Source of the DNA: Linanthus parryae
Lineage: Eukaryota > Streptophyta > Magnoliopsida > Ericales > Polemoniaceae
NCBI GenBank assembly: GCA_023055425.1
Contig: JALGPY010000008.1
Span: 9,868,501-9,932,500, forward strand
Direction of reading: 5' to 3'
Length of the DNA stretch: 64,000 nt
The notes under the pieces are model-generated. The model was not told where the DNA came from. It ran no database searches and saw only the letters and a list, made by a program, of their open reading frames with translations. The position numbers and the translations under genes are program-made. Positions 12,350-59,989 of the stretch are shown here, piece after piece; the stretch's first letter is position 1, and the number at the start of each line of letters is the position of its first letter.

Positions 12350-12351
12350 AA

Positions 12352-12406: not shown

Positions 12407-12881
12407 ACTGTGTCTGGTGAAGGAACTTTAGGAAAAGAGGAGAAACAGGATACTAGCACCAAATGTTTTTGTCCTGACTAGCATACTCGATCCAAACCTG
12501 CCTAAACACAACAGCAACAAGAATCGCTGGATTCACGATTAGCCCATCCAAATCGAAAAATTCACAATGCAGTGTCACAAATCAATGCTAAATTCTAAAG
12601 TGATGTAGGGGTGAACCGAATCGAATTGACGAATTCAAAATTATGGGTGTTCAAACTCCATTTATTTCATTTCACCAAACAAACTATAGACGCAAACTGC
12701 TAATTCGGAATCCAAAATCAAGCAAAGTATTGTTGAAGCTATGCACATGTTACAGTGTATTTTTTCTCTTCACTATACCGGGTTTGTTTTTTTGTGTATA
12801 TCGATTATAGTGTTTAAACCTGAACCTTGAACATTTTACACTTATATAGTTGTATTCAAGTTTCTTTGATGTCATGTGTAG

Positions 12882-13130
12882 ATTCTCTCAGATGGAAACG
12901 CTATAACTACCTCTCTTCCCCAACAAGTTGGTGAATCTCGCAAAAACAATCAGGTATGAAATTCAACTCTAAATGATAAAGAAATACAAATTAACTTTTT
13001 TCCAGTGAAGATTTTGGGAACTTATGTTACCATTTTGTCTCAAATTTCTGTTGACTATTGTGAATATGCTCGTATTATTGTTCCCCGTGATGTTCCTAGC
13101 AGTCGAGCAGCACTGAGCGACGTCAATCTT
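12882..13130 (+). pseudogene. Relict module pair of the gene 2 family (copy C)
   Basis: After a TGTAG acceptor, bases 12882-12953 form a 72-base phase-0 exon ending AATCAG|GTATGA. This is the same length, phase and ending as the 24-codon modules of gene 2. It translates to ILSDGNAITTSLPQQV... and ends RKNNQ, comparable to the ...FNPNQ endings there. About 130 bases on, 13080-13130 reads VPRDVPSS... and ends VNL, matching the 25-codon module but 8 codons short, with no AG acceptor and AA in place of the GT donor. I take this as a decayed copy. It sits at the edge of the segmental duplication and just before a hAT insertion. Confidence 0.5.
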
Positions 13131-16389: not shown

Positions 16390-16404
16390 AAGTAATTAAG
16401 CCAA

Positions 16405-17185
16405 ACAAAAAGAACCTTTCAAATAGGTAAATCCAGAAGAATAATGCATGGAATAAACCAAGTACATGGACTAGTTCAAAGAAGTAGCAAATACCTCTGC
16501 AGTTTCCTTCTTGGCAGCAGCACCTTTCTTCTTCCTGCCAATGTCAACACCATAGTGTTGCAGATACCATTGCTTGGATGGAGCAGCATCCACCTGGACA
16601 ATTGCGCTCTTCACCAGAGTCTGCGTCCTGACAAGCTCATTGTTGGAAGCATTGTAAACCACGTCAAGGATACGGATTTTGCGGCTAACAGCTTCACTGA
16701 CTAATTACCAGTGTCTAATCTTAATCGAAGAGCCCTCCACTTCACATTGCCTCATCTCACTCGGACTCTCCTCACTGTCTTGTTGCTTGAGAGCTTAGTG
16801 TTAGCAGGCTGACGACCAAGCTCGTACCTATAAAATCCAACATAAATAGGAAACTTGTCAGACTGTCAGTATAGAACTCAACTGATAGCAATCTATATAC
16901 TAAACACCTAGGTGTTTTACCATTCACTAGGTAGTGTTAGATGATTGTGAGCACTAAGATTAAAGAGAAACCAATTGTCTGAAGTTATCAGGACATCACT
17001 TTAGCAGATGTGTGGTTCACAATTCAGAGATGTGATGGTTTGAGAAAAAGTGGCTTAAAGCCAAGGCAACAAGAACATGTGTCAGGAAATAAAACCCCCA
17101 TAGGCATATGTCCTCGCAACAAACATGTTTCACATTCAAACATAACACCATCTAGTTACAGAATTTTCCTAAAATTGGGTTTTTA
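16405..17185 (-). repeat. Segmental copy of part of the RPS8 gene (exon 3 plus intron 2)
   Basis: The block matches 58525-59470 in the same orientation. It contains a broken exon 3, the GTAGGTACGAG-side splice region and intron 2 strings such as GATTGTGAGCACTAAGATTA and AGAACATGTGTCAGG. Its left edge is within 20 bases of the palindromic element above. The other RPS8 exons are not seen near it. Confidence 0.85.
16495..16827 (-). pseudogene. RPS8 exon 3 pseudogene
   Basis: On the minus strand the segment matches exon 3 of the intact RPS8 gene at 58608-58941, including YELGRQP-side sequence, [19 protein letters not shown] and [15 protein letters not shown]. It carries a 6-base insertion (CGATTA) and, just after DTGN, a 7-base deletion. 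A TAG stop falls at the deletion, so the frame is broken. Both intron boundaries (AG acceptor side and GAG|GTATTTG donor side) are still recognisable, so this arose by DNA duplication and not by reverse transcription of mRNA. No start codon, exon 1-2 or exon 4-5 is present nearby. Confidence 0.88.
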
Positions 17186-26249: not shown

Positions 26250-26720
26250 GGATGCACATTTCTTTTGGATGAGGTCTATGGCACTCTTAATGGTTGTGGT
26301 GTTTCTAGTGTTGATATCCAGAGTCATACCTAGGTAAATTCCTAAATAGAAGTATAGGCAATGCCTATTTGGAATGTAAAATGGAATTTGTCATGATCTG
26401 TACAGTTAGGGTTGAAAGTGTAATGAGATATATTTAATTTAATGTGTTGCCATGTTTGAGTACAGTAATCAGAACGGATGGAATGAATTGTTCAAGTATT
26501 GTCCTGAAGTTTAAGAAAGATTATGCTATCATCTATAAATTACAAGTCAGTCATGGGCTTGAAATGTGATTTTGGCGAGATTCCTCTCAAATCACGAATA
26601 CGCTTACAAAAGGGTCTGGGATAAAACCTCCGCACACATGATGAAGAGGAAGGGTGACAGGGTGTCCCCATGCCTCAGAAGTTATGGGGTTTCAAGGGTT
26701 TTGTGTAAAAATGCTTAATT
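26250..26720 (-). pseudogene. LINE reverse transcriptase fragment, decayed
   Basis: Reading leftwards on the minus strand, RGMGTP/GDTLSPFLFIMCAEVLSQ matches the plant L1 RT block RGLRQGDPLSPYLFVLCAE. About 100 bases later DDSIIFLKLQ matches the catalytic FADDS(I/L)IF block. Frames change between the two and stops occur. The copy lies at the left edge of a large palindrome. The endonuclease half on the same strand is at 29650-28880, so the palindrome appears to sit inside or across this LINE. Confidence 0.65.
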
Positions 26721-27305
26721 TTTAATCTCCAACTGATAGGATCTCCCCCATTTCAAGTTTTGAAACTTATCTATAATACAAATAAGTCATTAAAATGTTG
26801 GCAACAACACAAGGGTAACCTGAAACATAGAATCACCACTAGTCATATAAAGCATTACATTGGGTTCAAAAGTAAAATTCTCTAGGCTGAGGGAGGGGGA
26901 AAAATGCTTAACTCTTATCTAATCACTCTAAGATAAGGAGGATTGGGGATCATAATTCGTCACTAACCCTGCCATGAATCAACAAATTCACTATGATGAA
27001 GAAATTAGGAATGCTTTCCTCAAAACGTTTTGATAGGTTATGTGCGCTTCTTTTGGCTTTCATCTCTTAGCCTATAGCTTTGAAATCGAAATCAATTTGT
27101 TTTACTCAAGTATATTTCAAATTCAAGATTACTAATACCATCCCAACAGTAAAATTTGAATCCTTCCGTACGTCAAATTCAGAATTTGGAATTTTTGGAT
27201 TTGAAATCCAAATCCAAATTCAGGTTACCAAACGCAGCCAAAAACTTTGCCAGTATTCATTGAAAAATGGATCTGCACCTTTTATATTATAGGTAAACTT
27301 CATAC

Positions 27306-27732
27306 CCAGTTGGTGTTGATCGATTCACCAAATCCTTGGAGGAAAGAAGTATCACCACGGTTACATATACAGGAAGCTATGAGTAACCTCATAGAAAACT
27401 TGATGCAAGTATAAAATATTCAGATGCAATTATAACACAAATATTGATCTGGGAAATACCAGATTGTTATAGTTGCTTTTACTGAGAAGATTACTAGGCA
27501 CAAGATATGTGTTTATGTAAGATACTTTTCACAACATTTAACACAAAATTTAATGAAAATGTAACGTTCGCGATCCAGAAAAAAATTGGCAGTATTCCAC
27601 TATCTAATTTGGTGCAGAATTCCGAACTTTACATTCTTGACGCTTAGAGTTAAGACCTCATACCCAATTATTGTTGGCTAATGCACTTAGTCCTTGTGGA
27701 GTTGAAGTTCCGGGAGTCACATGCCGATAAAT
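27306..27732 (-). pseudogene. Gene 2 family exons, left arm of P1
   Basis: Minus-strand exon 27732-27664 is 69 bases in phase 0. It is open as IYRHVTPGTSTPQGLSAL... and ends NNNW before GTATGAGG. It is the counterpart of gene 2 exon 9 (47917-47985), same length and splice signals. The next exon, 27376-27306, matches the 24-codon L module (CTTCCTG..ACCAACTGG|GTATGAAG) but is 71 bases, with one base missing after ACCG, so the frame breaks. The combination is a dead copy with conserved intron boundaries. Confidence 0.6.
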
Positions 27733-27850
27733 CTATGCATAACATCACATAAATTTCACGATAATAAAAAGTTAGAAATATTGTGTTACACTTTCATCTC
27801 TGTATTTCTAACTTTTTATTATCTTCAAATTTTTGTGATGTTATGCATAG

Positions 27851-28277
27851 TTTTATCGGCCTGTGACTCCCGTAACTTCAACTCCACACGGACTAAGTGC
27901 ATCGGCCAATAATAATTGGGTATTTGGTCTTAACTCTAAGCATCAAGAATGTAAAGTTCGGAATTCTGCACCAAATTAGACAGTTGAATACTGCCAAATC
28001 TTTTGTGGATCGCGAATGTTACATTTCCATTAAATTTTGTGTTAAATGTAGTGAAAAGTATCTTACATAAACACATATCTTGTGCCTAGTAATCTTCTAA
28101 GTAAAAGCAACTATAACAATCTGGTATTTCCCAGATCAATATTTGTGTTATAATTGCATCTGAATATTTTATACTTGCATCAAGCTTTCTATGAGGTTAC
28201 TCATAGCTTCCTGCATATGTAACCGTGGTGATACTTCTTTCCTCCAAGAATTTGGTGAATCGATCAACACCAACTGG
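27851..28277 (+). pseudogene. Gene 2 family exons, right arm of P1
   Basis: This is a mirror of the left-arm pair. Exon 27851-27919 (69 bases) reads FYRPVTPVTSTPHGLSAS... and ends NNNW before GTATTT. Exon 28207-28277 is an L-module copy of 71 bases. It has the same one-base deletion after ACCG as the left arm, so the frameshift predates the inverted duplication. The intron between them matches gene 2 sequence at 48000-48230, including TATTTCCCAGA.CAATATTT. Confidence 0.6.
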
Positions 28278-28879
28278 GTATGAAGTTTACCTATAATATA
28301 AAAGGTGCAGATCCATTTATCAATGAATACTGGTAAAATTTTTGGCTGCGTTTGGTAACCTGAATTTGAATTTGGATTTCAAATCCAAAAATTCCAAATT
28401 GTGAATTTGACGTACGGAAGGATTCAAATTTTACTGTTGAGATTGTATTAGTAATCTTGAATTTGAAATATACTTGATTAAAACAAATTGATTTCGATTT
28501 CAAAGCTATAGGCTAAGAGATGAAAGCCAAAAGAAGCGCACATAACCTATCAAAACGTTTTGAGGAAAGCATTCCTAATTTCTTCATCATAGTGAATTTT
28601 TTGATTCATGGCAGGGTGAGTGACCAAATATGATCCCCAATCCTCCTTATCTTAGAGTGAGTAGATAAGAATTAAGCATTTTTCCCCCTCCCTCAGCCAA
28701 GAGAACTTTACCTTTGAGCCCAATGTAATGCTTTATATGACTAGAGAGGTTGGTGATTCTATGTTCAAGTTACCCTTGTGATGTTGCCAACACTTTAATG
28801 ACTTATTTGTATTATAGATAAGTTTCAAAACTTGAAATGGGGGAGATCCTACCAGTTGGAGATTAAAAATGCATCGGAT

Positions 28880-29650
28880 TAATTCGTAAGATTTATCAAC
28901 ACTTAACCACGAAGCCTCAGACCTCAATGGTCTAAGGAAGTTATGGGGGGATGGGAGGGTTTCCAGGTAAATGGGAGAGTGATCTAAGATAGTCATTCCT
29001 AGAGGGGAAATCCTAGCATGGTAAAGCATGTTTATCCAAAGTGAGTTGTAGAAGTCTCTATCCAATCTTTCTCAGGTTGGGGAAGAGGTATGTCTATTGT
29101 TCGTGCAAGTAAACCAAGGACCAACAATCCTAATTTCCATTATGCCCCATGAATTTAGGTAGCTTTTTAGATTTTTACTACCTGAAAAGTGAGAGGGTGA
29201 AGATCCTAGTTTGTCTTCTGCAGATATGACTTGATTGGAATCTCACATGATTAGAGTGTGGTGATCTAGAGGGATTAAGTTATGCATCCCTTCTCGAACC
29301 TTATTTCTTTCTTCCAATTGAGAGTGTCCATAGAGGAGCCATAGGGACCATTTATTGTGGAGTGCACTAGAAATTTCAGAGAAAATACAATTCTTACTTC
29401 TGGAGATGATGGATAGTGTGATATCTGATCCTCAACCCAACCAAAGTCCACCTCAGCTACCAAAGAATTCACTCCATCACTATTATTAAAACCTAATTTT
29501 CTATGTTTGTGGGAAGTTGAAGCAACTGAATTTCTTGTTTCTGAATGGAAATCCATGGAAGCGATTTTTTAATCTGGTCATCCTATAAACCTCATGAACT
29601 GTATCGACTTGACCAATTCTTGTACAGTTCCAGGCGATGAGTCTCATGGT
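28880..29650 (-). pseudogene. LINE ORF2 endonuclease fragment
   Basis: Reading leftwards on the minus strand from 29645: MRLIAWNCTRIGQ (L1 AP-endonuclease start, consensus MRLLSWNCRGLG), TVHEVYRMTRLKN, then in another frame ETRNSVASTSHKHRKLGF, and finally ILDHSPIYLE (consensus SDHxPI) at about 28990. Several frameshifts and stops are present. It is the EN half of a plant L1 element. The matching RT half lies at 26720-26250 beyond palindrome P1. Confidence 0.65.
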
Positions 29651-30395
29651 GAGGTTGATGGTTGTTCAAGGCCAACCATTCAGAAGTCTTAGGTACTAGA
29701 GTTTAGTCTGCGCTTTTTAGCACCATGTAAACTAAAGAGGTAAGATTTCTAAGAGAGACTGGAGGGGGTTTAATTCTCGTATTTTATTTGATTGATTAAA
29801 TTGAGCATTAACATAATGAGTAGGAATGCAATTTCTTAGGAGTGAACATGGAGGGAGTTCAGGATCATGAAATAAGTATTGAATATTTGAAATTTTGAAT
29901 CTTACCCCTGTGTTTGAAGGTACTGTCTGCTTGGATGGTATTCTCCTCTCTGAACCTCTTCTTGATTGGGAGATACGAACTACCAGTGCTTTCATACTAC
30001 TGCAATGCTACTTTGTCTTCCTGGGTGAGATGAGCCAATTTTGATTCCTCCCCTTTGAAACCCAATTTTATCCATGTCCTTTTTTGGTTTCTATTTGAAT
30101 TTCAAAGTCGTCTTCATCATTAGATATCGCAATTAAGTACTAAATTCATTGATCTATGCCATTCACTCACACTAGATGTTAAAATTACAAATGTTGATGG
30201 GTAAACCACTCCTCTTAGGTACATCTAATGTTTTTTTTTTTTTTTTGAGAAAAACATATAATGTTTCATGTTGTAGGGTTATATATGTAACTTCTTTCTT
30301 GGTCGACAAAGTAAATATTGTAGTCTTTAATTTAAATGTCACCGTAAGTAAAAAAATCATGGTAAACTTTAATTTGAATGCAACAATTACTGTAC

Positions 30396-30536
30396 CAGGT
30401 TTTTTGCAAGTTGTTATTGTTACGTGGATGTTTGGTGAAATGCTCTATATAGTTTTGGATTTTCAGGACCACAGAGAGATCCATCAAATGTGTTTGTCTG
30501 GTTACTTCCCGAATTGGGGTTATTTGATGATGACAT
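30396..30536 (-). pseudogene. Gene 2 exon 1 copy, left arm of P2
   Basis: The minus-strand ATG at 30536 starts MSSSNNPNSGSNQTNTF, matching gene 2 exon 1 (MSSPSNPNSGSNQTNTL). It continues LYRAFHQT, a segment gene 2 itself lacks, then hits TAA within the exon. The splice context CCTG|GTACAG is kept. Confidence 0.65.
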
Positions 30537-30888
30537 GCTTTTCCTAACCAACAGTGAAGAACATTGTCAATTTATATTCTGCACAGTGCAAATAAAAGCA
30601 TAACTTTCTTAACCTTCAAAAGAATTGAAAGAAAGATAATAAATATTTGAACAAAAATGCCCAATTCCTACTTTAACCAGCCAAATCAAAGGAGTTGGAG
30701 TTTAGTTTCATGTACTCAGTTTCGATCTCCTTTGATTTGGCTGGTTAAACTAGGAATTGGGCATTTTTGTTGAAATATTTATTATCTTTCTCAATTTCAA
30801 TTCTTTTAAAGGTTGAGAAAGTTATGCTTTTATTTGCACTGTGCAGAATATAAATTGATAATGTTCTTCACTGTTGTTTTGGAAAGGC

Positions 30889-31024
30889 ATGTCATCGTCA
30901 ATAACCCAAATTCGGGAAGTAACCAGACAAACACATTCGATCAATTTCTTTGCGGTCCTGAAAGTCCAGAACTGTATAGAGCATTTCACCAAACAGCCAA
31001 AAACAACAACTTGTGGAACACCTG
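30889..31024 (+). pseudogene. Gene 2 exon 1 copy, right arm of P2
   Basis: An ATG at 30889 is followed by one missing base within the first codons, so the ATG frame is lost. The downstream frame still reads VNNPNSGSNQTNTF, ESPELYRAFHQT and NNNLWNTW up to the GTACAG donor. This arm and the left arm carry different lesions, so both decayed independently after the inversion. Confidence 0.6.
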
Positions 31025-31710
31025 GTACAGTAATTGTTGCATTCAAATTAAAGTTTACTATGATTTTTTATCTACTGTGGCATTCAAATTAAAGACTACA
31101 GTATTTACTTTGTCGGCCAAGAAAGAAGTTACATATATAATCCTAGAACATGAAACATTAGATGTACCTAAGAGGAGTGGTTCACCCATCAACATCTATA
31201 ATTTTAACATCTACTGTGAGAGATCTTAAGGAAGAATGGCATAGATCAATGACTTCTAGGACTTAATTGAAATATCTAATGATGAAGACGACTTTGGACT
31301 TCAAGTAGAAACCATAAAAGGACACTGATAAATTGGGTTTCGAAGGGGAGGAATCAAAATTCGCACATCAGACTCACGAAGACAAAGTAGTGTTGCAGTA
31401 GTATGAAGGCACTGGAAATTCTTATCTCCCAAATCAAGAATAGGTTCAGAGAGGAGGATACCATCCAAGCAGACAATACTTTCCAACACAGGGGTAAGAT
31501 TATAAATTTTAAATTTTCATTACTTATTTCATGATCCTAAGCCCCCTCCATGTTCACTCTCAAGAAATTTCTACTCATTATGTTAATGCTCAATTTAATC
31601 AATCAAATAAAAATGAAAGACGAAAATTAAATCCCCTCCAGCAACTCTTTGAAATCTTGCCTCTTTAGTTTACATGGTGCTAAATAGTGCACACTAAACT
31701 CTGGTACCTA

Positions 31711-32252
31711 CTCTACTACCTTCGCATTTCCTCCTCCCTAAAACTACTACTCATCTACAACCATTCCCCTCCTCCCACCTAATTAAGTTTATTTTTAAAA
31801 ATATTTAATGATTTAAAATATATTATTATTAGTGATAAAAATAAATCTGAAATAATATTAATATAAATATATTCACAAAAATGGTAAAAAATAATAATAT
31901 CAATAATAAAAAACAACAATTTTATTTCTCAAAATATTTAATAAATATAATTACTAATAATAATACAAAATAAGATATACCAAATTGACAACAAAATAAA
32001 ATACGATTTTTCTTAAATATTTTGCTCAATTATCGAAAAATATATTATTATCATTTTATAATAAAATTATAATTAAAATATATAAATCATAATTTAAAAC
32101 ACATAAAATAATAATAAAAAAATAATATTAAGTGTAATTAACTATCCCAAAATTGGATTAATTAGCTACCCCCTCACCCTCCCCCCTCATGGTTGGACAT
32201 GGTCCGTATTTTTATACATTTTTCCCCCTCCCCCTCATGGTTGGAGATGCTC
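31711..32252. mobile_element. PIF/Harbinger-like element inserted in the right arm of P2
   Basis: The right end reads CATGGTTGGAGATGCTC followed by TAA, the terminus and target typical of the GGGCATCTCCAACC group. The left arm of P2 provides the empty site (inverse of TCTTAGGTAC near 29690), so the insertion is in the right arm only. The left terminus is poorly preserved. The interior is extremely AT-rich (ATAATAATA tracts) between C-rich ends. Confidence 0.6.
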
Positions 32253-32259
32253 TAACACA

Positions 32260-32607
32260 CTTCTGAATGGTTGCCTTGAACAACCATCCACTTCATCATG
32301 AGATTCTTAACCTGGACTTGTAGAGGAATTGGTCAAGCCTCTACAGTTGATGAGGTTTATAGGATGACCAGATTAAAAATCCCTTCCATGTTTTGCATTT
32401 CAGAAACCTAAAACTTCAGTTGCTTAAACTTCGCACAAATTAGAAAATTAGTTTTAATTATAGTGATGGAGAAGATTCTCCTGGTACCTCATGTGGACTC
32501 TGGCTGATTTGGGGATCAGATATCACACTATCCTTCATCTCCACAAGTACGAATTTTATCTTCTCTAAAATTTCTTATGCGCTCCACAATAATTTCCTTA
32601 TTGGGCA
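32260..32607 (+). pseudogene. LINE endonuclease start, right arm of P2
   Basis: A plus-strand mirror of the 29.6 kb fragment: MRFLTWTCRGIGQASTVDEV, YRMTRLKIPSMFCISET then a stop, followed by the QISHYPSSPQVRILSSLKFL string. The Gypsy LTR at 32608 cuts it off. Confidence 0.6.
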
Positions 32608-34868: not shown

Positions 34869-36882
34869 ATCCCTAAAAAGAGTCAAGGGTATTAGTGAGA
34901 GTCATAGTACATTGTACTTCCTCGATGTCAGTAGGTTCTTCCTACTTCACTTTCTCACACGTATTAAGAAATTTATGCAAATGACCCAACCTAATTTATG
35001 TAATTACTCTCACTCTCTTTGATATTCAGAGACAACAACAACATCATCATCTACAACAACAACATTGAACTATTTACAGTAACAAATACAGATCTAAAGC
35101 AAAAAATAATAATAATAATAATAAAAGAAAGAAATCTAATCTAATGACAAGAAGATACAAACAGAAGAAGAAGAACAGGAAGAACACTGTCACCACACCG
35201 CCAACTCCAACGCCATCGCCGCGTCTGGTCCGTCGGTTTCAACGGGGACCGGTGGCCTAAGCCCTCTTCCTCCTCCATCTCCTGATCTGCAACAAGGGAG
35301 ACCAATATCTGCAGAGACAACCCAGTTCTAAGATAGGAGAGGAGATGAAAGATAAAGAGAGGGAGAGAGAGTCTTACGCAATGGTGGTGGTGGTGGCGAC
35401 ACTGGCGGCTCCTCGTCGTGGCTGGCGTTCGTCTGAAGCCCTCCCACCGCCAATCATGCGAGAGGAGAAAAAATGAAGATCGGGGAGGATGGTGGTGGTA
35501 GGATGCTAATCGGAAGGTAGGAGGCTAATCGGAGGGTTAAAACCCAGGCTTCAACAAACTGCGGCGGATGTGGTGGTAGAAGAGGAGTAGGAGCCTCTGA
35601 CAACCATAACATGAAAATCTACACTTGGACATTGCGTTGGGAGAGTGAGAGATTAGGTCAAAATCCAAGCAACAACAGGTAGAAGTAGAATCAAAATCCA
35701 AGGTCAGATCTTCGCAGCAACAAGGTTTCAAACCATCTCCAGGTCTCCATCAACCCAATATTTCAAATGATCAGTCTTGAAACCTGCAAAAAAACTTAAA
35801 AAAATATAAACTCAATTAAAAAAATGGGTAATGAACACTAAACCTACCTGCAAAATGTATTTTGGAACACGAAATTCCCTACATTTTCAGTTTCCCACTA
35901 CAAACCCCATACAATATACATATGTGGGACACTCAACCCCAAATTGATAACGGGGTTTAAAATTCTAACATAAATTCATCCATATAACAACTAGGATGAG
36001 TAATATGGATGAAGTTGTACAAGGCGAATAGTTGTGACCTATAGGGAAGGATGCGTCTGTAGAGTGAAAACAAACACTAAAGAACCAATGTGGACAATAA
36101 TGTAACCGAAGCCCCAAAACCAGCCACACAATTGCGATCCATTACACTAAATTTTCGAAGAAAAGGACATAATTATATGAAACAAGATTGTCCTTTTTAT
36201 GTCATCCACCTACTTTGACATTCAAGAGAAAAGGTGCAACTCTCTGCTCCGTGTCTAGCTAAGTATGAATAATACTAGGTATTAACTATTTCTATTTCAA
36301 AACAAAAATCGTTATGAAGAAGAATAGAGGAAGTCAAAAGATTAGAATATGGAGCTTTCTCTGACTTCATTGAGGCACTTGGTATAGAAAAGGAGGAGAA
36401 CTATTGCTCGTATACCCGACTGGAACCTGCCTAAAATCAGCACTTAGTTTAGAAAAAAAGATAACTATATCTAGTGAAGGAAGTTTGAGAAAAGAGAAGA
36501 AATAGGATACTAGCACTAGTATAGCCGACCCGAACCTGCCTAAACACAGCAGCAACACGAATATCTGGATTCACTATTAGCCCATCCAAATCGAAAAATT
36601 CACAATTTCGTGTCACAAATCAACGCTAGATTCTAAAGTGGTGGAGGGGTGAACTCAATCGAATTGACGAATCCAAAATTGTGGTTGTTCAAATTCGATT
36701 TATTTCATTTCACCAAACAAGCTATAGACGCACAATGGTAATCCCGTATCCAAAATCAAGCTAAGTATTTTTTTGAAGCTATGCACATGTTACAGATGAT
36801 TTTTTCTCTTGATTATACCGGATTTGTTCTTTCGTGAATATGGATGATGTTGTCTAAACTTGAACATGAACAATTTATACTT
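34869..36882. repeat. Segmental duplication, copy 2 (partner 7292-12880)
   Basis: Same orientation as copy 1, shorter because it lacks the Copia-type element and the 11120-11870 segment. It runs into GGGTAAAATAC at 36883, where a Mutator-like end has inserted into sequence that in copy 1 leads to the relict gene 2 module. An ATAATAATAATAATAATA microsatellite lies at about 35106. Confidence 0.8.
35190..35457 (-). CDS. Possible two-exon small gene (58 codons), weak
   Basis: On the minus strand ATG at 35457 reads MIGGGRASDERQPRRGAASV to ATTGC|GTAAGA (exon 1 ends 35378). TGCAG|ATCAGG starts exon 2 at 35286, which reads SGDGGGRGLRPPVPVETDG and ends MALELAVW at TGA 35192-35190. The 80 plus 97 bases join in frame with good splice sites. 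Composition is Gly/Arg/Thr-rich and no family is recognised. The paralogous copy near 7610-7700 has a stop after RPPVPRY and lost exon 1, so at best one copy is intact. It may equally be a transcribed leader. Confidence 0.22.
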
Positions 36883-38537: not shown

Positions 38538-38873
38538 GCATGTCACAAACAGAGTCTACAATCCGTGGTGTGTCACAAAAAGAGCCTACAACCCGTTCTA
38601 TCAACTATTTGGCCTGCCCAATGATCCTTTATTTCGGGCATTTCTGGGGTCGTGGGGCCGCGAACAAGGCGGACAGAGTATGTTGTATAATCTTTTGTCA
38701 GCGCATCTTTTTGCAAGTTACATCATCATGTGATATTATATTGAGTGGATGATATTACCTACATGCCTTAAGTAAGTTATACTGGTCTCTGATAATGAGT
38801 TACTTTTCAAGACCCACTGCAGCGACAGGGAGAGGAACAAGGAGGAGACCAAGAAAATGGTGGAAACCAGTGA
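38538..38873 (+). pseudogene. 3' end of a gene 2 paralogue (copy B)
   Basis: After TTCAG, 38538-38677 matches gene 2 exon 14 in position and phase: HVTNRVYNPWCVTKRAYNP versus RLDNGVYDPLYLAL. It is 30 bases (10 codons) longer and ends CAGA|GTATG. The last exon reads RQGEEQGGDQENGGNQ and stops at 38871-38873, comparable to QGPNRGEDPNNGSGNQ in gene 2. The acceptor used in gene 2 (CTCAG|TG) is CCCAC|TG here, so splicing in frame is doubtful. Upstream exons are missing. Following sequence is also shared with gene 2's 3' flank. Confidence 0.55.
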
Positions 38874-39949: not shown

Positions 39950-41030
39950 CTGGAAAACCATTTTATGTACTCAATCTATAATCTATAACTAAAACCACAA
40001 TATTATATATTCCACCAGTCAAAAGTAGACTAAAGCAAAAGTTACGAATAACTGATTTTAATTGACTAGTCTTCACTATCAATTAGTTTTGCAGCATTGT
40101 TTTACAACTAATTTCCTTTTATGTACTTATCTCTTTTGATATACACTATCAAACAACCATTATCCCTCTATCACTCATCTAGCTCCGCAATCCATATTAT
40201 ATCAATTTGATTGTTATAAATCATATAGCTATTTAAGTCCACAATTCTTAAATCACCCAGGTCCAGAAACTGAAATCACACAAATATAACTTGTGAAATA
40301 AAAAGATGTTCTATCATGAATTAAGGAACTTATTCATAGCTTTAAAATGAAAGTTGTCACAGAAAATAATAGAGTCGGGGAAACGTGCCGATGTTACCCT
40401 ATCAGTATAAGAACATAAGACAAGGTGGGCCGAATCAAGAATCCAACCGACAGTCTTCCGACCAAGGTTCTATCAGTATGTTGACGTTTCACTTCCTGGT
40501 GGATAACGACAGAGAGACAATTCGGTAAAGATCACGGAGTTTTTTTTTTTCTTTTTTCATACGGAGTAATATATCAATTCATTGTTATAAATCACATAGC
40601 TATTGAAATATCAATTCTTAAATTCTAGTCTAGCAAACTAAAACCACGCTAAAATTAAGAAGATATTCTAAAGTCAGAAAGAAATAACTAAATCGGAGCT
40701 TTCAAATTAAAATAGCAGGGTTGTGGAAACTTGCCTAATCAAGAATTCAACCGACAATCTCCCAGAGACAGTTCATAGTTGTCATCACCGGTACGCTGGT
40801 GGTTCAATCATCAACGGTATCTAGTCTGCACTCTGCACACGGCAGTGTAAGAGAGACAATATGGTAATGAGAACGGAGGAAACAAAATTTATACCGAGTA
40901 ATTTATCAGTTTCATTGTTACAAATCACAAACAACAGCTAATGAAGCCCCCAATTCTTAAACCCAAATCTAGCAAACTGCAACCAAGAACGGGTCATTAG
41001 CTGTAAACCCCAAATCTAGTAATTTATCAG
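39950..41030. repeat. Duplicated 3' flank, partner of 52490-54060, itself present twice
   Basis: Strings such as CACATAGCTATT, GAATCCAACCGACAGTC, GGTAAxGAxxACGGAG and TATCAATT(T/C)xATTGTTATAAATC recur at 40190-40570 and 40570-40930, so the block is a tandem pair. Related sequence (ATCCAACGCACGGTTCG, GTTGGTGGTTCA, CTCATCAACGGTTTCTAGT) lies at 53810-53900 downstream of gene 2. No gene is seen inside. Confidence 0.5.
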
Positions 41031-42730
41031 TCAAAATTGTAATATCCTTCATGGCAATAGTACAGCTGTAAATGAGCATGTTGGTCCTAGACCGCGTCGG
41101 TCAAACCTTGATCCAAACTGAACTGTGTGCTAACTGAGCCGAGCTATGACATAGATTCAGGCTGTGTAAAACCAATCAGGCCCAAACAGAAAAAGATCAG
41201 TTGCTTGCCTCTACAGTCGGATCATTTGATAATTGCTTATTTCATTGTATATATATTTTCAGCATATTATATATATAAATAAGGGTAAAATACACTTTCA
41301 CCCCCTCTAGTTTCACTGAAGGACACTTTCACCCCCTCTAGTTTGGAAAAGGGCACTTTCACCCCTTCAGTGTGCCAAACTTCTGAAAACTTACACCCCA
41401 TATTGTGACACCATTAGTCAGGAGTTGAGATATGTCATTGAAATAGTTGTTTTGGGACAGTCTTACCCATATAATATGCAAAATATAGGGTTACTCTACA
41501 CTGTTTGCATGATATGAGGGGCAAATGTGTCTCTAAAACTATTTTCAGTGACGTATCCTGCCCCGAGACTATCGATTTCTCAAACACAGTGTGCAACTTA
41601 CTTCAAGTTCGACACACTATAGGGGTGAAAGTGTACTTTTCCTCCAAACTAGAGGGGTAAAAGTGTCCTTCAATGAAACTATAGGGGGTGAAAGCATCTT
41701 TTACCCTATAAATAATCATATCGTATATGACCATCTACCGTAATCAAAAGGTTACGGCAAAAAAATAATTATTTCACTTGAGCTTTGAAAAGATTATTTA
41801 TGGTGAACACATACAAGATGAGCTCTCAAGCCCAAACAGCTTCAAAAGCTCCAGCTACAATTACTATTTACCAAGAGGCATTAATTGTTTAAATCTAGAA
41901 ATATCTAAGAACAACATAATATATCTGCCTAGCAAGGTAAAGTTCCATAAGTACATCTGACAAACATTGCCAACAGTGAGAAGGTGCGATACAACACCGG
42001 AGCACTATTGCAGGTTGGTCACCAAATTGATACCGCTACGGCTCCACTACAGAACACAAATATCAAACTATGCTTATGTACTTGTCGAGCTTCTAAGAAT
42101 CGTCCTCCAATTTCCCATGAAATGTTCCTCCATACACAATTTTAAGCCAACTTTTGATGAGGTATGTTTGCTATTTGAATATTTTCTTATAACTGATGTA
42201 GGAGGCAACAATAAGGAACCTGAGATGTCTGAAGGTATAGTTCTTACCTACTTGATCTGGTATTCTATTATACATTCGGTGAAATATCAAGGTCATTGAC
42301 GAATAGTCGATCTTTCAGTCAAAAATATGTTCTTTAAAATGTCCCTTTATGAGTGTAGAAGGGGAGATTTATCTTTTACATATCATAGTTGTCAAAGTCG
42401 GCTTCCAAGGCGGTACAATTGCCTGGGCAGTCATCTCATATCTGCTGCACCATTGCACCACTTTTCCAGAAAATTACACCATTGAATCTATTGTAAAGCT
42501 AGAATAATTTATGCATTAATATAATTTCATATTCTATGAGGGATATTAAATTATATCATTTAAAATCAAGACAAGATTAATACTATTGTGCTATTTATTT
42601 ATAGCGAAAATGACGATTAATATGAAGTTTTGCTTAATGTGCATTAAATTAGCATTAATGAATGCAAGTTAAGACATCATTATGTGCAACATAAATAAAA
42701 TTCATAAATTAATAATATTTGTTATTGTCA
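41031..42730. mobile_element. Second copy of the foldback element (one arm)
   Basis: This block matches the element at the window start: ATATCCTTCATGGCAATA (inverse near 1720), the CAATTATCAAATGATCC string, the centre with TTTTCAGCA.ATTAT, and the arm running to AATTAATAATATTTGTTATTG at 42730. The opposite arm is missing. It gives an empty site for the G-rich hAT insertion of copy 1 and carries its own nested MITE at 41283-41706. A 110-codon frame (41967-42299) is part of the arm and not a gene. Confidence 0.75.
41283..41706. mobile_element. Mutator-like MITE with 9-base target duplication
   Basis: The 424-base element begins GGGTAAAATACACTTTCACC and ends with the inverse (GGTGAAAGCATCTTTTACCC). 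The arms are about 110 bases, with several CACTTTCACCCC units. Perfect 9-base repeats TATAAATAA flank it (41274-41282 and 41707-41715). Nine bases fits Mutator-like transposition. It sits inside the second foldback copy. Confidence 0.88.
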
Positions 42731-44045: not shown

Positions 44046-44773
44046 ATGTCCTCACCAAGTAACCCAAATTCAGGGAGTAATCAGACAAACACACTCCCAG
44101 GATTTCTTTGGGGTGCTGAAAGTCCAGAACAACTTGCAGAAAACCTGGTACAGTAATCGTTGCATTCAAATTAAAGTTTACCTTGATTTTGTTTACCTAC
44201 TGTGGCATTCAAATTAAAGTCTACAGTAAGTTTCCTTTGATTGATCATTTAGTATTCCTGGTTTAGTGGCCATAAGGGTTATAACTTCTAAAGAACAACG
44301 AAATCTTGGTTAGATGGGGATCCTAGTTCAGACAATCAAAGGTTGTGGTGAGAAGCATATGGACTCTGGGGCCATGTTTCTTATTTGGCTTGTGAACCCA
44401 GGATGGGATCCACAAGCCTTAACCATGTAAGGTCAGTGTTTGTTGGAAAGAATGAGTAGGTATTATAAGAATCCATCGTGTTCCACTTCGAAACTAATTA
44501 GCAACGAGGAGAGTAACGTAGGAAACCCTTAAGTTGAAGTTTCTTTTTTTTTGTAAGTGTCCAATGAGGGACATCTCAACGGGATAGGCACTAACAAGCC
44601 CCACTTTAAGACCTCTAACAGGGGACTTACATAGGCAAGGCGCATACATATAAGCAAATGGTCTCTAGCTCAATAGCAGATCATAGCATGCCCTAGCATA
44701 GGAATGGAGTCCGAACCCCACCAATGGTTAGGTTACAAAGGGATTAGTTAAACTAACGTTCCTTCTTGTTATC

Positions 44774-44844
<71 letters not shown>

Positions 44845-47800
44845 AATAAAATAGGGTCCCTCTCAACAAGGGGAATCCACTTAGGGAAAGGTAGACCCAT
44901 ATTTGGATGGTTATGATTCCGGTTGTTACTCCAACTGCTTTTAGTTTCTTTCTTGATGGATTTCTCGCAAGTCTATCAGATCACACATAATGACATTGGA
45001 AACCTAAACAGAGATTCGTTGAACCAATTAGTTATCTTATAATTTCTTTGATGAAATGTATAGCCTCCCGAAATGTATACTTACCTCAAGTTTTCCATGA
45101 TGTTATAGCTTCCTGCAGATGTAACCGCTGGTAATACTTCCTCCCTGGAAGGATTTGGTGACTGGTTCAACACCAACCAGGGATGAGGTTTACCTATAAG
45201 ATAAAGAACCCAAATCAGTTTTCGCATTGAATACTATAATAGCATTTGATAATATTAGTTACATTTTAGCTGAAATTTATGTTGATTGCTGCAAACAGGT
45301 TTCCGGGACTCCTACCGATGTGTCTAGTCATCTTCCTGGCTACCAAGCAGGATCGAGCAACAACGCTAATCTTGTACGGGCACTATTAACAAATTGTAAA
45401 ACTTGAAATATGATTCTAAATTTTGTTTATGAAATTTGGCTCCTGTTTAATCTTGAATCACTTCTTTGTTTACGAAATGAAATTATTGGAAAATGTCTGC
45501 TTTCGCATAAACTTTGGATTGATAATCATAGAACATTAGAAATATTTTCTTGGGAATTTACTATGTACTAAGGTGTACACTTGTATCCAAAATGTTTCAC
45601 TCTGAATATTTTTATGCTAACCTCGAGTTTTCTATGATGTTATAGCTTCCTGCAAATGGAACCGCTGGTAATATTGCCTCCCTACAAGGATTTAGTGAAT
45701 GGTTCAACCCCAACCAGGTATGAGGCTTAACTCTAGTATAATGAACCCAGAATTGTTTCTAAGTATTTGATAATATTAGTTACATGTTATCTGAACTTTA
45801 TGTTGATTGTTGCAAATAGGTTTCAGGGACTCCTACCGTCGTGCCTAGTCATCTTCCTGGCTACCAAGCAGGGCCTAGCAACACCAGTAATCTTGTATGA
45901 GCCCTATAACAAATTGTACTTGCCAGTCAATTAAAACTTACAGATGCGACTCTAAATTTTTTTTAATGAAAATTGACTCCTGTTTAAACTTGAATCACTT
46001 CTTTGTTTAGGAAATGAAAACCTGAATTACGGTTGGAAACTGTCTGCTTTCACATAAATCTTGGATCGATAATCATAGAACATTAAAAATATTTTCTTGG
46101 GAACTTTACAGTACAATGTGCTAAGGTGTAAACTTGTATCCAAAATGTTTCACTCTGCATATTTTTATACTAACCTCGAGTTTTTATGATGTTATAGCTT
46201 CCTGCAAATCTGACCGCTGATGCTACTTCTTTCCGCCATGTATTTGGTGAATCGATCGACACCAACCGGGTATGATGTTTACCTATAATATAAAGAACCC
46301 AAATCCGTTTTCGCATTGAATACTATAAAAGTATTTGATAATATTAGTTTCAGTTTATCTGAAATTTATGTTGATTTTGGCAAATAGGTTTCCGAGACTC
46401 CTACCGGTGTGCCTAGTCATCTACCTGGCTACCAAGCAGGACAGAGAAACAACAGTAATCTTGTAAGGGCCCTATTAACCAATGAATTAAATCTTACAAA
46501 TATGATTCTAGATTTCTGTTTAAGAATTTTGGCTCCTGTTTAACATGAATCACTTCTTTGTTTAGGAAATAAAAACCTGAATTACATTTGGAACATGTCT
46601 GCTTTCAAAAAAAATTTAGATCGATAATCGTAAAACATCGGAATTTTTTTTGGGAACTTTATAGTACTACGGTATGAGTTTTAACTAGGGTGTACACTCG
46701 TGTCCAAAATGTTTCACATTGTGATGTTCCCGCAGGTGATTGGGAACTTTATAGAACTATATACTATGGTGTACACTTGTATCCTAAATGTTTTACTTTT
46801 TTATATTACTGCAGGTGATTGAGCATGTCAACCCTCCACCCCCGCCGCCGCGGCGCGGCCGTGGCCGACCACGGTCTGCAATAGTAAGAGCTCCATCAAC
46901 AGATAATTACAATTATCAAAAAGCCCGACGGGCATAAATTAAAACTCTTTGTGATATTTGATAATGTTTCACATAACTATATTTGGGCTAATTGATTGAT
47001 AGTAATATCTATATGATCACTCGATTAAGACATGAATGAAGTATTAACATGCATAAAGTTTAAATCTCTACACCAGACCTATGGGCCTTAAAATGAAATA
47101 TGAACTTCCAAAATAGAATTAAGAAGAAAAGGGGAAATTCATGGAATTGTAAGAGTGAGAAAGAGAGATGTAAAGAGTCACTACCTTTCGGAGGTCTTTA
47201 CTTATGCTCTTTCCTTTAAAAGAGCTATCTTCATCTCCTTGTAGTGGCCTCCTATTTTTCAATTTGAACTCTTCTTGCCAGAATCATCTAGCCCTTGTTA
47301 ACTTCCCAAAAGGAGCCTAAGTTGTACGTCTGAAACCCCAAAAGTTCCCAGTGAAGAATTGAAGTGGCAACCTTGGGCCCAACTAAAAACACCGCAAATA
47401 AATATGCATTTTGTCACAACATCATTGGTTTAACATAATCTATGCGAAGCAATAAATACTAGATAAGCACAATTAAGCTATTGGGCACATTCTTACATAA
47501 ATCCTCCTATATGAATAGAAATGTATACACTACGGTTATAATTTCATGCAAATAACGAGTAAAAGTGCCAAAATATACTTTCCATCACAGAGTTATTCAG
47601 CCTATATGTAAAGCATGACGTCATCCGTAAGAACGTTATCACTAGCAAAACATATACTTTCACACACGTGTGTGTGCCCGTGCATCATTTTTGTGGTGAA
47701 CCTAACAGCACTGGCGGCATCAAATTTCAATTTTGACACAGAGATATATTTCCTAGGGTCTTGTCACTATGCTTGAGAGTCTAAAGAACATTTCTTGGCT

Positions 47801-50800
47801 GATTGTTCTCAAAATCAATTATATTAGTGTTCGGATATGAGAAATACTGTGTTACACTTGCATCTCTGTATTTCTAACTTTTTATTATCTTGACTTTTCT
47901 GTGATGTTATGCATAGTTTTATCGGCATGCGACTCCTGGAACCTCAACTCCACAAGGACTAAGTGCATCAGCCAACAAGAATTGGGTATGAGGTCTTAAT
48001 TCTAAGCGTTCAAGAATGTAAAGTTCGGAATTCTGCACCAAATTAGACAGTTGAATACCGCCAAATCTTTTGTGGATCGCGAACGTTACATTTTCATTAA
48101 ATTTTGTGTTAAATGTTGTGAAAATTATCTTACATAAACACATATCTTGTGCCTAGTAATCTTCTCAGTAAAAGTAACTATAACAATCTGGTATTTCCCA
48201 GAACAATATTTGTGTTATACTTGTATCTGAATTTTTATACTTGCCGAAAACAAATATCAATTGATATTCTTTTTCAAATATATATGTATTAAGAAAATCT
48301 ATTAGTTATTTTATATTTTTAGTAATCTGAGAGATTCAATATTTTTGAAATGTGAACTTTAAGTACCAATGGCAAAGCTCTGGCCCCATTGGTTTTGGGA
48401 TCGGGTCCTTGCGAAAGATAAATATTTGTTTTTTTCAGATTGAAACCGAAAGATCAAATTTCAGTTTTCTTATTTGAAGCCGACTGATGATGACGAGTTT
48501 TCTTCACTTATTTGGCCCCCTTCCGTGTGTCGTTTCAAATAACATTTGTCACATGAGAATTTGACAATATTAACAAATAAGGGTCTTGGATTTGTTCCAA
48601 AAATAATCCCCCCAAATCCAAATGTAAGCCTCAAATTCATGGTCATCCAAACAGACCCTTTGAGAGTATTTGTTACATTTTAATCTGAAATGTATGCTGA
48701 TCGTTGTGAATAGGTTTCCGAAAGCGAAATATTTGTTTGTTTCAGATTGAAACCGAAAGATCAAATTTCAGTTTTCTTATTTGAAGCCGACTGATGATGA
48801 CGAGTTTTCTTCACTTATTTGGCCCCCTCCAGTGTGTCGTTTCAAATAACGTACCGCATGAGAATTTGACAATATTACCAATTAAGGGTCTTGGATTTGA
48901 AATTATTAACAATTAAGTTTGTTCCAAATCAAATCCAAGACACTTGTGTACCCAAACACTAGGTTTAGCCCCAAATCCCCCCAAATCCAAATCTAGCCTC
49001 AAATCCATGGTCATCCAAACAGACCCTTTGAGAGTATTTGTTACATTTTATCTGAAATTTATGCTGATTGTTGTGAATAGGTATCCAGAAATCCTACCGG
49101 TGTGGCCAGTCATCTTCCTACCGACCAAACAGGATCGAGCAGCAACAAATCGAGCAGCAACAGGACTTTTGTATGGGCCCTATTAACAAATTGTTTTATC
49201 CCCGAATTAAAACTAATAAATACTTTCACATGCTTGTATAACATGTTTTCACTCTATTTGTCAACAGGTTTCAACGGGGATAGGGAGGCACATACCATCT
49301 CGTCCTCTTAATCAAAGAGCAACATCCAACATTAACGTCAACAGCAACAGGGTATGCATGTTTTTTGTTTTAAGGCCATTCTCTTGGGAGATTGCTTTTG
49401 GTGTCCTGAATGTCATTGTCTAATTTCGTACTATCTTTTCAATAGGAGTCTTATGCCTCAACCTCCTCAGCGGTCATACATACTTCTCAAGGGCAACTTG
49501 CCTCCAGCAGCAATAATGTGCGTACACAATTCCACGCTTAGACCACTTCATTGGTCATTTTCTTTCGATCTACGTTCTTATAAAACAGTGAATAGTGCTA
49601 AAATACGATTGCTTTTTCTCAATTTCTTGCTTTAGCCTGGAATGCAGCAAGTACAACAAGAGCAGCCTCTTGATCAAAATCGCAAAAGGCCTAGAGATGT
49701 AACTGCTGAAGAAATAGATGAACACTTGAGGAAACGAAGGTACGATACTGTTTATAACTGACTTCTATATTTCCCCATACATACTTCACTGATCGTGCTA
49801 GAGAAAAAGCTGTGCTTATTATATTATCAGTTAAATAAGCAGAACATAGAAATGGAAATTAGAAAAAGGAGGGGTATGGTTATGTCATTATGTCACTACA
49901 GTTGGAGATGAAAGCAGGATTCTTCTATATAGGGGCCCGTAGTTACAAAAATTGTTTAGATAGCATTCTTACGTGGAATGCAAAAGCACTCATGTGTTCT
50001 GATGTTTATGCTTTTTTGAATTTTGAACTTGTAATTAAATTGCAGTGTTCGAAAGATTTCTAATATATACCTACATATATATATGAGTTATCCGGGTGCT
50101 ATGCTTAGTATGCTATCCACACAAAATCAAGATCTGTATGCAGTTGCTGTTCCATAAACAAATTCTATTGATTAGGATTCATTTCGAGTTATTGAATCCT
50201 AATATATGGTATCAGAGCTAGGTTTGCTCAAATACCTTGTTAACAGTAGTCACCGAATCAGAGGCGGAAGCTAACCAGATTTGAGAGATAGAAGCTGAAG
50301 ACGTTCACAGGCTCCAAGAGCATACTTCTAAACTGCTGCAGTGTAAGAAGCCATAATTGAGGTTCTGGGAAGCCGTATGGAGGGATTGGATTCGAAAATT
50401 GGGTACGGTTGAAGGCCAGAATGGAAACATCGGTGGGTTGAACGAGGATGAAAGTAGTACCAAATTCAGAATAGATGATTGGGTACCAAATTCACTACAC
50501 TTCGTATCGAAGCTAGTTCTTGGAGTTTAGCTGAATGTGAAAATATGGTTATCTGTTCATGAAGCAGTGGTAGGTGAGTATCGTTAAGGGGGATTTAAGA
50601 ATGTGTTGGGGGAGTATACCTACCTATACCCATTTTTCAGTTTTCACTTTACTCCCCCTCATACACATTCTTAAATCATCACATTTTTTAATTCCCAATA
50701 AAAGTACCACATCCAACAAAGGACTAGTAGATCTAGCGAGTCAAAAAGACATCCTTAATCTCCGTGAAAAAGTCCACCCAAACACTCAATCTGGGACAGA

Positions 50801-52044
50801 GGGAGTACTGTAATCAGGGGTTATAAACGAGAGAAGAAGTTCTTTTGCTAGTCCAGCATTGTTGGTAAGGAAAAATGGAAGTTGTTGGTGATTTTGCATG
50901 GATTAATCAAGTCAAATGATCTCACCGTGAAAAACAAGTTTACTACACCAGTTATAGATGATTTGATAGATGAATTGCGCAGAGCAAGCTGGTTCTCCAA
51001 GCTGGACGCCTGGACCTTATATATGAATACCACTTAGTACGAATGTCAGAAAAAGACATCGGAAAAACAGAATTACAACTGAAAAGCATAATTGAAAAGC
51101 ATAATCCGAACTCAAGGACCACAGGTGTGTCATGAATCTGAACCCAACTCCTAAAACACACTGGAATTTACCTTCTTGATGGAGGAGTGTACTGAATCGA
51201 GCAGAGCGCCCTTACTTTCTCGAGGCAAAAGTTTTAAGTATAACTGTTTGATCTCCTCTTCCCTCAAATATAACAGTAATCCAAAACCCTAGATCATAAG
51301 AGTTACTGCTTGTGATTTTAAGTCCAATTATTTAATTTCTTTTCCTCTAACCATTGCTATGAAATGATAGGTTCATTATTTTCAAATTCTGCATTTTCAA
51401 AAAGAAAAGTTCAGATTGTCGTTAAATAATTTTGTAGAGGGCCGTCTTTGTAACTTCTAACTTGCACCTTTTATATTAGTAGAAGTAAAGCAGAATTTGT
51501 GAGCTTAGCAAGGCCCATGCCCCCCTCACCCCATCCCTCTGTGTGCTTCCATATCTTGGTTGATATTTGCTTCCATCTCCTCTCCTACCTTATAACACAT
51601 TAAAGAACATTGTATATCTTAGTTATTATTATATCTCATTAACCCCTTATTTGAGATCACATTGCTATAAATGTTTGACATGACTTGTTTTTCAGGCGTC
51701 TTGACAATGGGGTATATGATCCTCTGTACCTGGCATTGGATCAGCAGATCGATATTTGGTATCGATCAATGCGGATGGTACTAGACATTGAAAAAAGCGA
51801 ACAAAGTACGTTGTTTCATTTTTTGTCATCACATCAGCATGCAAGCGATATCATTAGTCATTAATGTGCTATTTAATTTGAGTTGATGCTTTTTAAGTTT
51901 CACATTAAAGTTTTTAGATAACTAATCAAAAATAACACACCTTAAATAGATCGTACTAGTGCCTAACAATGAGTTGCCTTTCAAGACTCAGTGCAGGGAC
52001 CAAATCGTGGAGAAGACCCAAACAACGGATCTGGGAATCAGTGA
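44046..52044 (+). CDS. Gene 2: unrecognised multi-exon gene with tandem-repeated exons
   Basis: Proposed coding exons: 44046-44147, 45299-45373, 45646-45717, 45820-45894, 46198-46269, 46388-46462, 46815-46883, 47917-47985, 49081-49170, 49268-49351, 49446-49517, 49636-49739, 51696-51805, 51992-52044. They total 1,122 bases, 373 codons, no internal stop. All but the last three exons are phase 0-0. An L module (24 codons, LPANGTAGN...FNPNQ) alternates with a V module (25 codons, VSGTPT..PSHLPGYQAG..NL). A further exon-like L copy at 45109-45180 has GG for its GT donor and is left out. Then come PPPPPPRRGRGRPRSA (AT-hook-like RGRP), Ser/Asn-rich exons, KRPRDVTAEEIDEHLRKRR (possible nuclear signal) and an acidic tail GEDPNNGSGNQ. 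A nuclear protein is inferred, function unknown. No homologue is recognised; transcript data would be needed to fix the exon set. Confidence 0.58.
44550..44842 (+). repeat. SINE-like retroposon with A-tail and (TA)n, in gene 2 intron 1
   Basis: A 240-base non-coding unit ends GGGATTAGTTAAACTAACG, CTTCTTGTTATC and an A run (44774-44790), followed by 26 TA units (44791-44842). Tail structure and the GGATTAGTT..TTATC string fit a plant SINE. GTCCGAACCCC resembles an inverted B box, which does not fit the tail direction, so the class is uncertain. Confidence 0.4.
45109..45180 (+). pseudogene. Splice-dead L-module exon in gene 2
   Basis: After TTATAG, 72 bases translate in phase 0 to LPADVTAGNTSSLEGF... 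and end NTNQ, a perfect L module. The donor that is GTATGAGG in the sister exons is GGATGAGG here. Reading on to the next GT would meet TGA at once. The exon is probably skipped. Because it is 72 bases, skipping keeps the frame. Confidence 0.6.
46640..46822 (+). repeat. Short tandem duplication around the acceptor of the AT-hook exon
   Basis: GGGAACTTTATAG..CTA..GTGTACACT.GT.TCC.AAATGTTT..GCAGGTGATTG occurs twice in a row (46652-46745 and 46741-46825). The first copy leaves a decoy acceptor CCCGCAG|GTGATTGGG at about 46734. Only the second continues into the coding exon. Confidence 0.65.
46815..46883 (+). other. AT-hook-like exon of gene 2
   Basis: A phase-0 exon of 23 codons: VIEHVNPPPPPPRRGRGRPR, then SAI before GTAAGAG. 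The RGRP core flanked by Arg is the AT-hook signature for minor-groove binding. The proline run before it is GC-rich (CCGCCGCCGCGGCGCGGCC), unlike the AT-rich surroundings. Confidence 0.55.
47986..49080 (+). repeat. Gene 2 intron with a tandem 300-350 base duplication
   Basis: A block from TTTCAGATTGAAACCGAAAG through CCGACTGATGATGACGAG to TGTGAATAG|GT occurs at about 48421-48727 and 48727-49080. The first copy ends in an exon-like start (TGAATAG|GTTTCCGAAA) that is cut off after ten bases by the second copy. Only the second leads into the real exon at 49081. Confidence 0.75.
50207..50218 (+). other. Copia-type primer site in gene 2 intron 13
   Basis: TGGTATCAGAGCTAGG follows ATTGAATCCTAATATA, which looks like an LTR end. 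It marks a fragment of a plus-strand Copia-type element within the 2 kb intron. No partner LTR was found. Confidence 0.4.
50585..50808. mobile_element. MITE-like fragment with Stowaway-type right end
   Basis: GATTTAAGAATGTG and CACATTCTTAAATC form an inverted repeat about 80 bases apart, flanked by GGGGGAGTA/TACTCCCCC. The block ends GGGACAGAGGGAGTAC, a Stowaway-type terminus. Boundaries are approximate. Confidence 0.4.
50885..51100 (+). pseudogene. Ty3/Gypsy reverse transcriptase fragment in gene 2 intron 13
   Basis: DLTVKNKFTTPVIDDLIDEL then RRASWFSKLDAW matches the Gypsy RT block (KFPIPVIDELLDEL..FSKLDLRSGYHQI). In another frame HLVRMSEKDIGKTELQ matches the following IRM.E.DI.KTAF block. 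The frames differ and stops follow, so it is dead. It lies in sense orientation within the intron. Confidence 0.65.

Positions 52045-56984: not shown

Positions 56985-59989
<3,005 letters not shown>

Follow-up and report, generated by a model that had tools for sequence, protein, structure and literature searches.

Internal tandem exon duplication in eukaryotic genes copies whole exons together with their introns head to tail, and the reading frame survives because the copied exons are phase-symmetric. A tandem duplication inside a plant gene has been published for a potato RNA-dependent RNA polymerase gene (PMC4974935), in a paper about intron gain. The locus described here lies at positions 44,046–52,044 on the plus strand of a 64,000-nucleotide (nt) stretch of the Linanthus parryae genome (contig JALGPY010000008.1), which as a whole is referred to as the window. 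It contains a repeated pair of short exons, termed L and V, and belongs to this phenomenon. Distinctive of the Linanthus unit is that it is an exon pair, is present in at least three copies, lies in a gene with no family match and is accompanied by several dead modules. We regard the locus, with moderate confidence, as a fast-evolving gene of a small local family which encodes a probably disordered nuclear protein and in which unequal exchange has added modules and decay has removed them.

The core of the locus is formed by three head-to-tail units of about 540 bases each (45,109–46,462), which consist of one L exon of 72 nt and one V exon of 75 nt. In all three units both exons have the same phase, 0-0, at their two ends:

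45,109–45,180, plus strand: L1, first L exon, 72 nt, phase 0-0, donor lost (rebuilt exon)
45,299–45,373, plus strand: V1, first V exon, 75 nt, phase 0-0 (repeat search, rebuilt exon)
45,646–45,717, plus strand: L2, second L exon, 72 nt (repeat search, rebuilt exon)
45,820–45,894, plus strand: V2, second V exon, 75 nt (repeat search, rebuilt exon)
46,198–46,269, plus strand: L3, third L exon, 72 nt, more diverged than L1 and L2 (rebuilt exon, unit alignment)
46,388–46,462, plus strand: V3, third V exon, 75 nt (repeat search, rebuilt exon)

Over aligned, ungapped columns, the exons of units 1 and 2, 1 and 3, and 2 and 3 are identical at fractions of 0.871, 0.816 and 0.796, and the introns at 0.850, 0.846 and 0.820, respectively. 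As the introns have been copied along with the exons, a symmetric exon pair has been tandemly duplicated at the DNA level. A reading made beforehand from the sequence only had proposed three such pairs with these lengths and phases, and coordinates and phases were reproduced; its further claim of a DNA-level duplication of a roughly 500-base unit with similar introns is borne out by the intron identity of 82–85% and by L-to-L start distances of 537 and 552 nt. Its statement that all pairs share near-identical splice contexts does not hold, since 11 of the 12 splice sites in the units are canonical and the donor of L1 is not. Canonical splice sites at each copy are needed for a working copy, not for the duplication as such.

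The defect of L1 is a single replaced dinucleotide: its donor context reads CAG/GGATGAG, with GG in place of GT, compared with GTATGAG after L2 and GTATGAT after L3. Read-through past L1 adds one Gly codon and then meets a stop. If the donor letter is right, splicing of L1 to V1 by the usual rules is thus ruled out, and with the donor GT lost and read-through blocked after one codon, L1 is probably skipped. The frame stays open over 375 codons when E1, the first coding exon, is spliced straight to V1. The isoforms with differing numbers of modules that the sequence-only reading expected would here gain a concrete case, as L1 without its donor should be skipped.

Rebuilt by script, the exons of the whole locus join to a model of 15 exons in the order E1, L1, V1, L2, V2, L3, V3, H, Z, V4, E11, E12, E13, E14 and E15, with 1200 nt in total, corresponding to 399 codons and a stop. 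Only the last two junctions depart from phase 0, and of the 28 splice dinucleotides 27 read GT or AG. The open frame of the sequence-only reading was thereby retained, and its count of 14 exons and 373 codons was not; these numbers are recovered if one 24-codon exon (L1, L2, L3 or E12) is omitted and 51,992 is taken as the first base of the last exon. The features of the model outside the repeated modules are:

44,046–44,147, plus strand: E1, first coding exon with ATG start, 34 codons (rebuilt exon; ATG also kept in both copies in palindrome 2, see below)
46,684–46,821, plus strand: duplicated acceptor region before exon H, 46,684–46,742 and 46,763–46,821, 79 nt apart and 81% alike (repeat search)
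46,815–46,883, plus strand: H, exon of 69 nt, 70% guanine plus cytosine (GC), encoding a proline run and RRGRGRPR (rebuilt exon)
49,636–49,739, plus strand: E13, 104 nt, with basic stretches RKRPR and RKR, the latter continued by E14 (rebuilt exon)
51,696–51,805, plus strand: E14, 110 nt, entered in phase 2, with an in-phase homologue at 38,538–38,677 (rebuilt exon, comparison)
51,986–52,044, plus strand: E15, final coding exon, carrying the TGA; a second possible acceptor lies at 51,992 (rebuilt exon)

Several properties of these exons are those of coding sequence. Their GC content is 0.43–0.70 compared with 0.25–0.37 in the introns, and by codon position it amounts to 0.56/0.52/0.40 in the model frame. 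This frame contains no internal stop, the other two frames of the same exons contain 9 and 28, and mononucleotide-shuffled exons a mean of 18.6, counts which flatter the model because the exons were chosen for openness. The exon length differences found within the array and in a partial second gene copy (copy B, see below, its exons marked by a prime) are multiples of three in five of five cases (V4 +15, Z −3, E14′ +30, E15′ +6 and −3). If the same substitutions are spread at random, E14 is broken in 82% of trials from the gene to copy B and in 94% in the reverse direction (5,000 trials each), and an L relative at 12.9 kilobases (kb) in 50–72%. The BLOSUM score of the E14 comparison is +13 in the model frame and −23 and −15 in the other two. 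The proposal of an unrecognised protein-coding gene therefore persists as the best reading of the frame evidence, with no family match at Pfam.

The array of modules extends beyond the three pairs that the sequence-only reading had listed and includes Z, a dead V exon, a V stub, V4 and E11. This was revealed by searching the window with a V profile and with an L profile made from the three L exons plus 40 nt on either side. Apart from its own members, the L profile found two copies in a palindrome (palindrome 1, E about 4e-33), 12,856–12,983 (E=3e-11), exon Z with its flanks at 47,885–48,005 (E=5e-7) and two palindrome copies of Z (E=1e-5 and 6e-4). The V profile matched the exon at 49,081, V4 (E=8e-32), the stub at 48,674–48,721 (E=5e-6) and 13,031–13,128 (E=3e-5). 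The additional modules are:

47,917–47,985, plus strand: Z, L-like exon by DNA profile (rebuilt exon, L profile)
48,085–48,194, plus strand: dead V exon with its upstream intron, 3′ of Z, V acceptor lost (repeat search)
48,674–48,721, plus strand: stub of one more V exon and the intron before it, truncated by other repeated sequence (repeat search, V profile)
49,081–49,170, plus strand: V4, fourth V exon that can be read, 90 nt, exceeding V1–V3 by 15 nt (V profile, peptide match)
49,268–49,351, plus strand: E11, 84 nt, diverged V-type exon (peptide match to V exons, shuffle P=0.001)
49,446–49,517, plus strand: E12, 72 nt, possibly L-type (shuffle P=0.035, uncorrected)

At the peptide level (18 comparisons in all, 1,000 shuffles each, P uncorrected), V4 and E11 both match the V exons with P=0.001, and E12 matches L weakly (P=0.035); a value of P=0.007 for E13 against L was not trusted. 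The Z peptide alone does not match L (P=0.35), and its kinship to L therefore rests on the DNA including the flanks. Z looks like an L exon that has decayed, with a dead V behind it, and L and V modules seem to have contributed to the gene on more than one occasion.

Relatives of the gene also occur elsewhere in the window. Two of them stand in direct orientation:

12,882–12,953, plus strand: L relative, 72 nt, open and followed by GT, its V partner at about 13,031–13,128 lacking acceptor and donor (profiles, comparison)
38,538–38,873, plus strand: copy B, with homologues of E14 (38,538–38,677) and E15 (38,812–38,873) and the same TGA (window comparison)

In copy B, E14′ comprises 140 nt compared with 110 nt in the gene (30 nt longer) in the same phase, and E15′ 62 nt compared with 59 nt with the same TGA; the likeness also covers intron 14 and the 3′ flank up to 39,119. 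The kinship of E14 and E14′ is deduced from their ends, which are 78% alike over 46 nt, from intron 14 and from their position. A search upstream of E14′ found no homologue of E13. Exon 14 of copy B holds at 38,542–38,601 an internal repeat of 10 residues, VTNRVYNPWC/VTKRAYNPFY, a further in-frame duplication within one exon. Upstream of the two relatives, 7,296–12,843 and 34,876–36,882 share four colinear repeated pieces, 83–87% alike, which suggests an older segmental duplication upstream of the 12.9-kb and 38.5-kb relatives.

Further gene fragments are held by two large palindromes:

26,718–28,870, no strand assigned: palindrome 1, 2.15 kb without spacer, arms 94.4% alike, with two Z and two L copies (repeat search)
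29,352–32,592, no strand assigned: palindrome 2, arm pieces 84–88% alike, with two E1 copies including upstream and intron-1 sequence (repeat search)

The gene fragments of palindrome 1 are situated near its centre, and both Z copies are open and 69 nt long. In palindrome 2, the E1 copies are arranged head to head on opposite strands with their ATGs 353 nt apart. Exon Z and palindrome 1 have an exact stretch of 25 nt in common; for the other 14 exons the longest exact match to the palindromes does not exceed 16 nt. The outer parts and ends of the palindromes resemble, by motif, inverted endonuclease/reverse transcriptase sequence of the long interspersed nuclear element (LINE) type; in Pfam, the pieces assigned to LINEs by eye were not matched to a LINE family. 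An assembly artefact was rejected since the arms differ by about 6% in one palindrome and 12–16% in the other, differences too large for a folded-back read, and a terminal-inverted-repeat transposon was set aside in view of the presumably LINE-like outer parts. The palindromes appear to fit an inverted duplication of a decayed gene copy together with a LINE insertion better than such a transposon. Inverted-duplication loci have been proposed as the origin of plant microRNA genes (PMC3237417); the inverted copies of gene pieces in the two palindromes resemble such loci, but the palindrome arms measure about 1 kb or more.

The remainder of the window is likewise repetitive. A direct repeat (8,030–8,527/9,997–10,494) is 98.8% identical over 498 nt and contains three 15-nt ATCACCTCCTCAGAG units per copy. 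The start of the window, 1–2,651, is related to 40,775–42,728 in inverted and direct order and includes an inverted repeat (1–583/1,995–2,571, 89%). Two copies at 16,404–17,072 and 58,517–59,162 are 89% alike, and the minus strand of the second codes for a portion of ribosomal protein S8e. As a whole, the window has the character of plant DNA, with the copia primer-site sequence TGGTATCAGAGC at 50,207–50,218 and the Pfam matches to RVT_3, zf-CCHC_4 and ribosomal protein S8e given below.

The predicted product contains 13% Ser, 11% Asn, 9% Pro and 9% Gly, and the residues W, F, Y, I, M, L, V and C together account for 22% (calculated from a string without one Arg at the E13–E14 junction); this composition suggests a mostly disordered protein. 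Basic clusters, RKRPR and RKRRR, are encoded by E13–E14 near the C-terminus. Clusters of this kind are found in nuclear signals, and in the product they may act as nuclear localisation signals. In exon H a proline run is followed by RRGRGRPR, a stretch similar to the AT-hook core, RGRP. The AT-hook-like exon of the sequence-only reading is present as a motif, from which its name is taken: the product has one such motif, and Pfam provides no family for exon H or the whole product.

Database searches yielded no relative. For the 399-residue product, and for exon H searched by itself, Pfam returned 0 families at E≤10, although the HMMER filters drop most weak matches and could miss a short motif, and it gave no relative of the C-terminal 114 residues; the rows for a 218-residue part, SOG2 (E=0.23) and Ecl1 (E=6.3), are at chance level, far below cut-offs, and were disregarded. 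With 0 families matched there is also no transposase, integrase, gag or reverse transcriptase among the Pfam matches, and the product was not identified as a known transposon protein, the finding that the sequence-only reading had named as refuting it. In a large protein set, phmmer detected nothing at E≤1 for the 399-residue product (7,996 candidates) and nothing at E≤10 for residues 300–399 (34 candidates). A control open reading frame (ORF) of plant-LINE-like character, with a zf-CCHC_4 match and a DUF4283 match below cut-off, was also unmatched in that set at E≤0.001; plants therefore seem absent from it, and the phmmer results say little on plants. No relative was obtained by phmmer in the PDB for the product or from Rfam for the window, and among viral contigs none of 13 pattern matches was confirmed. 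A literature search, weak because it used neither species nor family name, found no naming of this gene in the text it covered. Of the other ORFs in the window, Pfam recognised two as RVT_3, one as zf-CCHC_4 and one as ribosomal protein S8e.

In the scenario that we favour, a unit of about 540 bases comprising two phase 0-0 exons and their introns would be duplicated by unequal exchange or slippage, and the middle of the gene would grow. As each exon length is a multiple of three, gain or loss of a module would spare the remaining frame, and modules could thus be added, decayed or skipped at little cost, L1 being a present example. If transcribed and spliced along the modelled exons, the gene would give rise to a Ser/Asn/Pro/Gly-rich product with a basic, DNA-binding-like exon H and basic C-terminal clusters.

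Other observations weigh against a working gene. L1 has lost its donor, two modules of the array are dead, the Z peptide alone fails to match L, and the product has no Pfam match at E≤10. Both L copies of palindrome 1 measure 71 nt, one base short, with a broken frame. Against 102 nt in the gene, the E1 copies of palindrome 2 comprise 136 nt (+34) with loss of the frame and, in the second copy, 141 nt (+39, frame length kept) but with two stops inside. E14 and E14′ agree in only 52 of 108 bases and 7 of 36 residues. Openness is not rare: 60 of 324 intronic AG..GT segments of 60–115 nt and a length divisible by three are open in phase 0, all three L/V units are stop-free by chance in 37% of simulations, and the lengths of V4 and Z are partly a choice effect. 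BLOSUM scores of the L, V and E14 pairs are not above those of random substitutions (P 0.08–0.99), the ratio of non-synonymous to synonymous divergence (dN/dS) for L plus V in the three unit pairs is 0.91, 2.09 and 1.00 without visible purifying selection, and exon identity between units (0.80–0.87) is about that of the introns (0.82–0.85). There is no evidence for amino-acid selection on the L/V modules; their frames are mostly kept, their residues are not.

Instead of the favoured scenario, the whole locus could be a recently dead pseudogene, once a coding member of the family, which now drifts neutrally like the fragments at 12.9, 27–31 and 38.7 kb. This main rival, which we consider rather unlikely but a serious contender, would explain why dN/dS is near 1, why conservation is no higher in exons than in introns, why L1 lacks its donor, why V modules are dead or cut off and why all other copies in the window are partial. 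However, all 15 exons are open and all but one of the 28 splice dinucleotides conform, though the exons were picked for openness; differences in length, both within the array and in copy B, leave the frame intact, and one lost donor of a skippable exon is not fatal to a gene. That the locus is part of a transposon, or a gene fragment captured by one, instead of a host gene is improbable. The window is rich in mobile-element pieces (the two RVT_3 ORFs and the zf-CCHC_4 ORF), and gene pieces lie in the two palindromes beside sequence presumably of LINE type, but the product has no Pfam match and a 15-exon structure, no inverted repeats of at least 80 nt or direct repeats of at least 100 nt bound 44.0–52.1 kb, none of the 25 longest of 105 short inverted pairs (43.5–52.7 kb) joins both ends, and the pieces called LINE by eye lack a LINE match in Pfam.

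Positive selection in a conflict or recognition gene, by which the exons would diverge faster than neutral, appears very improbable. The exons do differ more than their flanks, but none of six Fisher tests falls below 0.05, the exon–flank odds ratios of 0.7–2.1 (split by base class) rest on double-counted sites, and in each of the three pairs the introns have diverged more than the V exons have in dN (0.12, 0.16 and 0.11). A like excess separates the two palindrome arms, which look dead, and this points to a mutational cause; positive selection was set aside on these grounds. In a very speculative extension, to which we give only a slight chance, the family would encode a disordered nuclear protein whose length, module number and frame are maintained with residues left free and whose exon-pair array expands and shrinks by unequal exchange, while the nearby inverted fragments of its relatives would be transcribed as hairpins and would feed small RNAs back on the gene via exon Z.

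The most telling facts are that L1 lacks its donor, that modules have decayed and that residues show no constraint; they make the locus less a showcase of working modular isoforms than a fast-turning-over local gene family, and the fast-changing gene is real but fairly ordinary. If it is not expressed, it represents a tidy pseudogene family of local interest only, and interest stays modest until expression is shown. If it is expressed, it would be a clear natural case of a protein lengthened by whole modules without frame cost, with modules caught at every stage, fresh, splice-broken, decayed and dead, and it would open the question whether a disordered region is selected for how long it is and not for which residues it contains.
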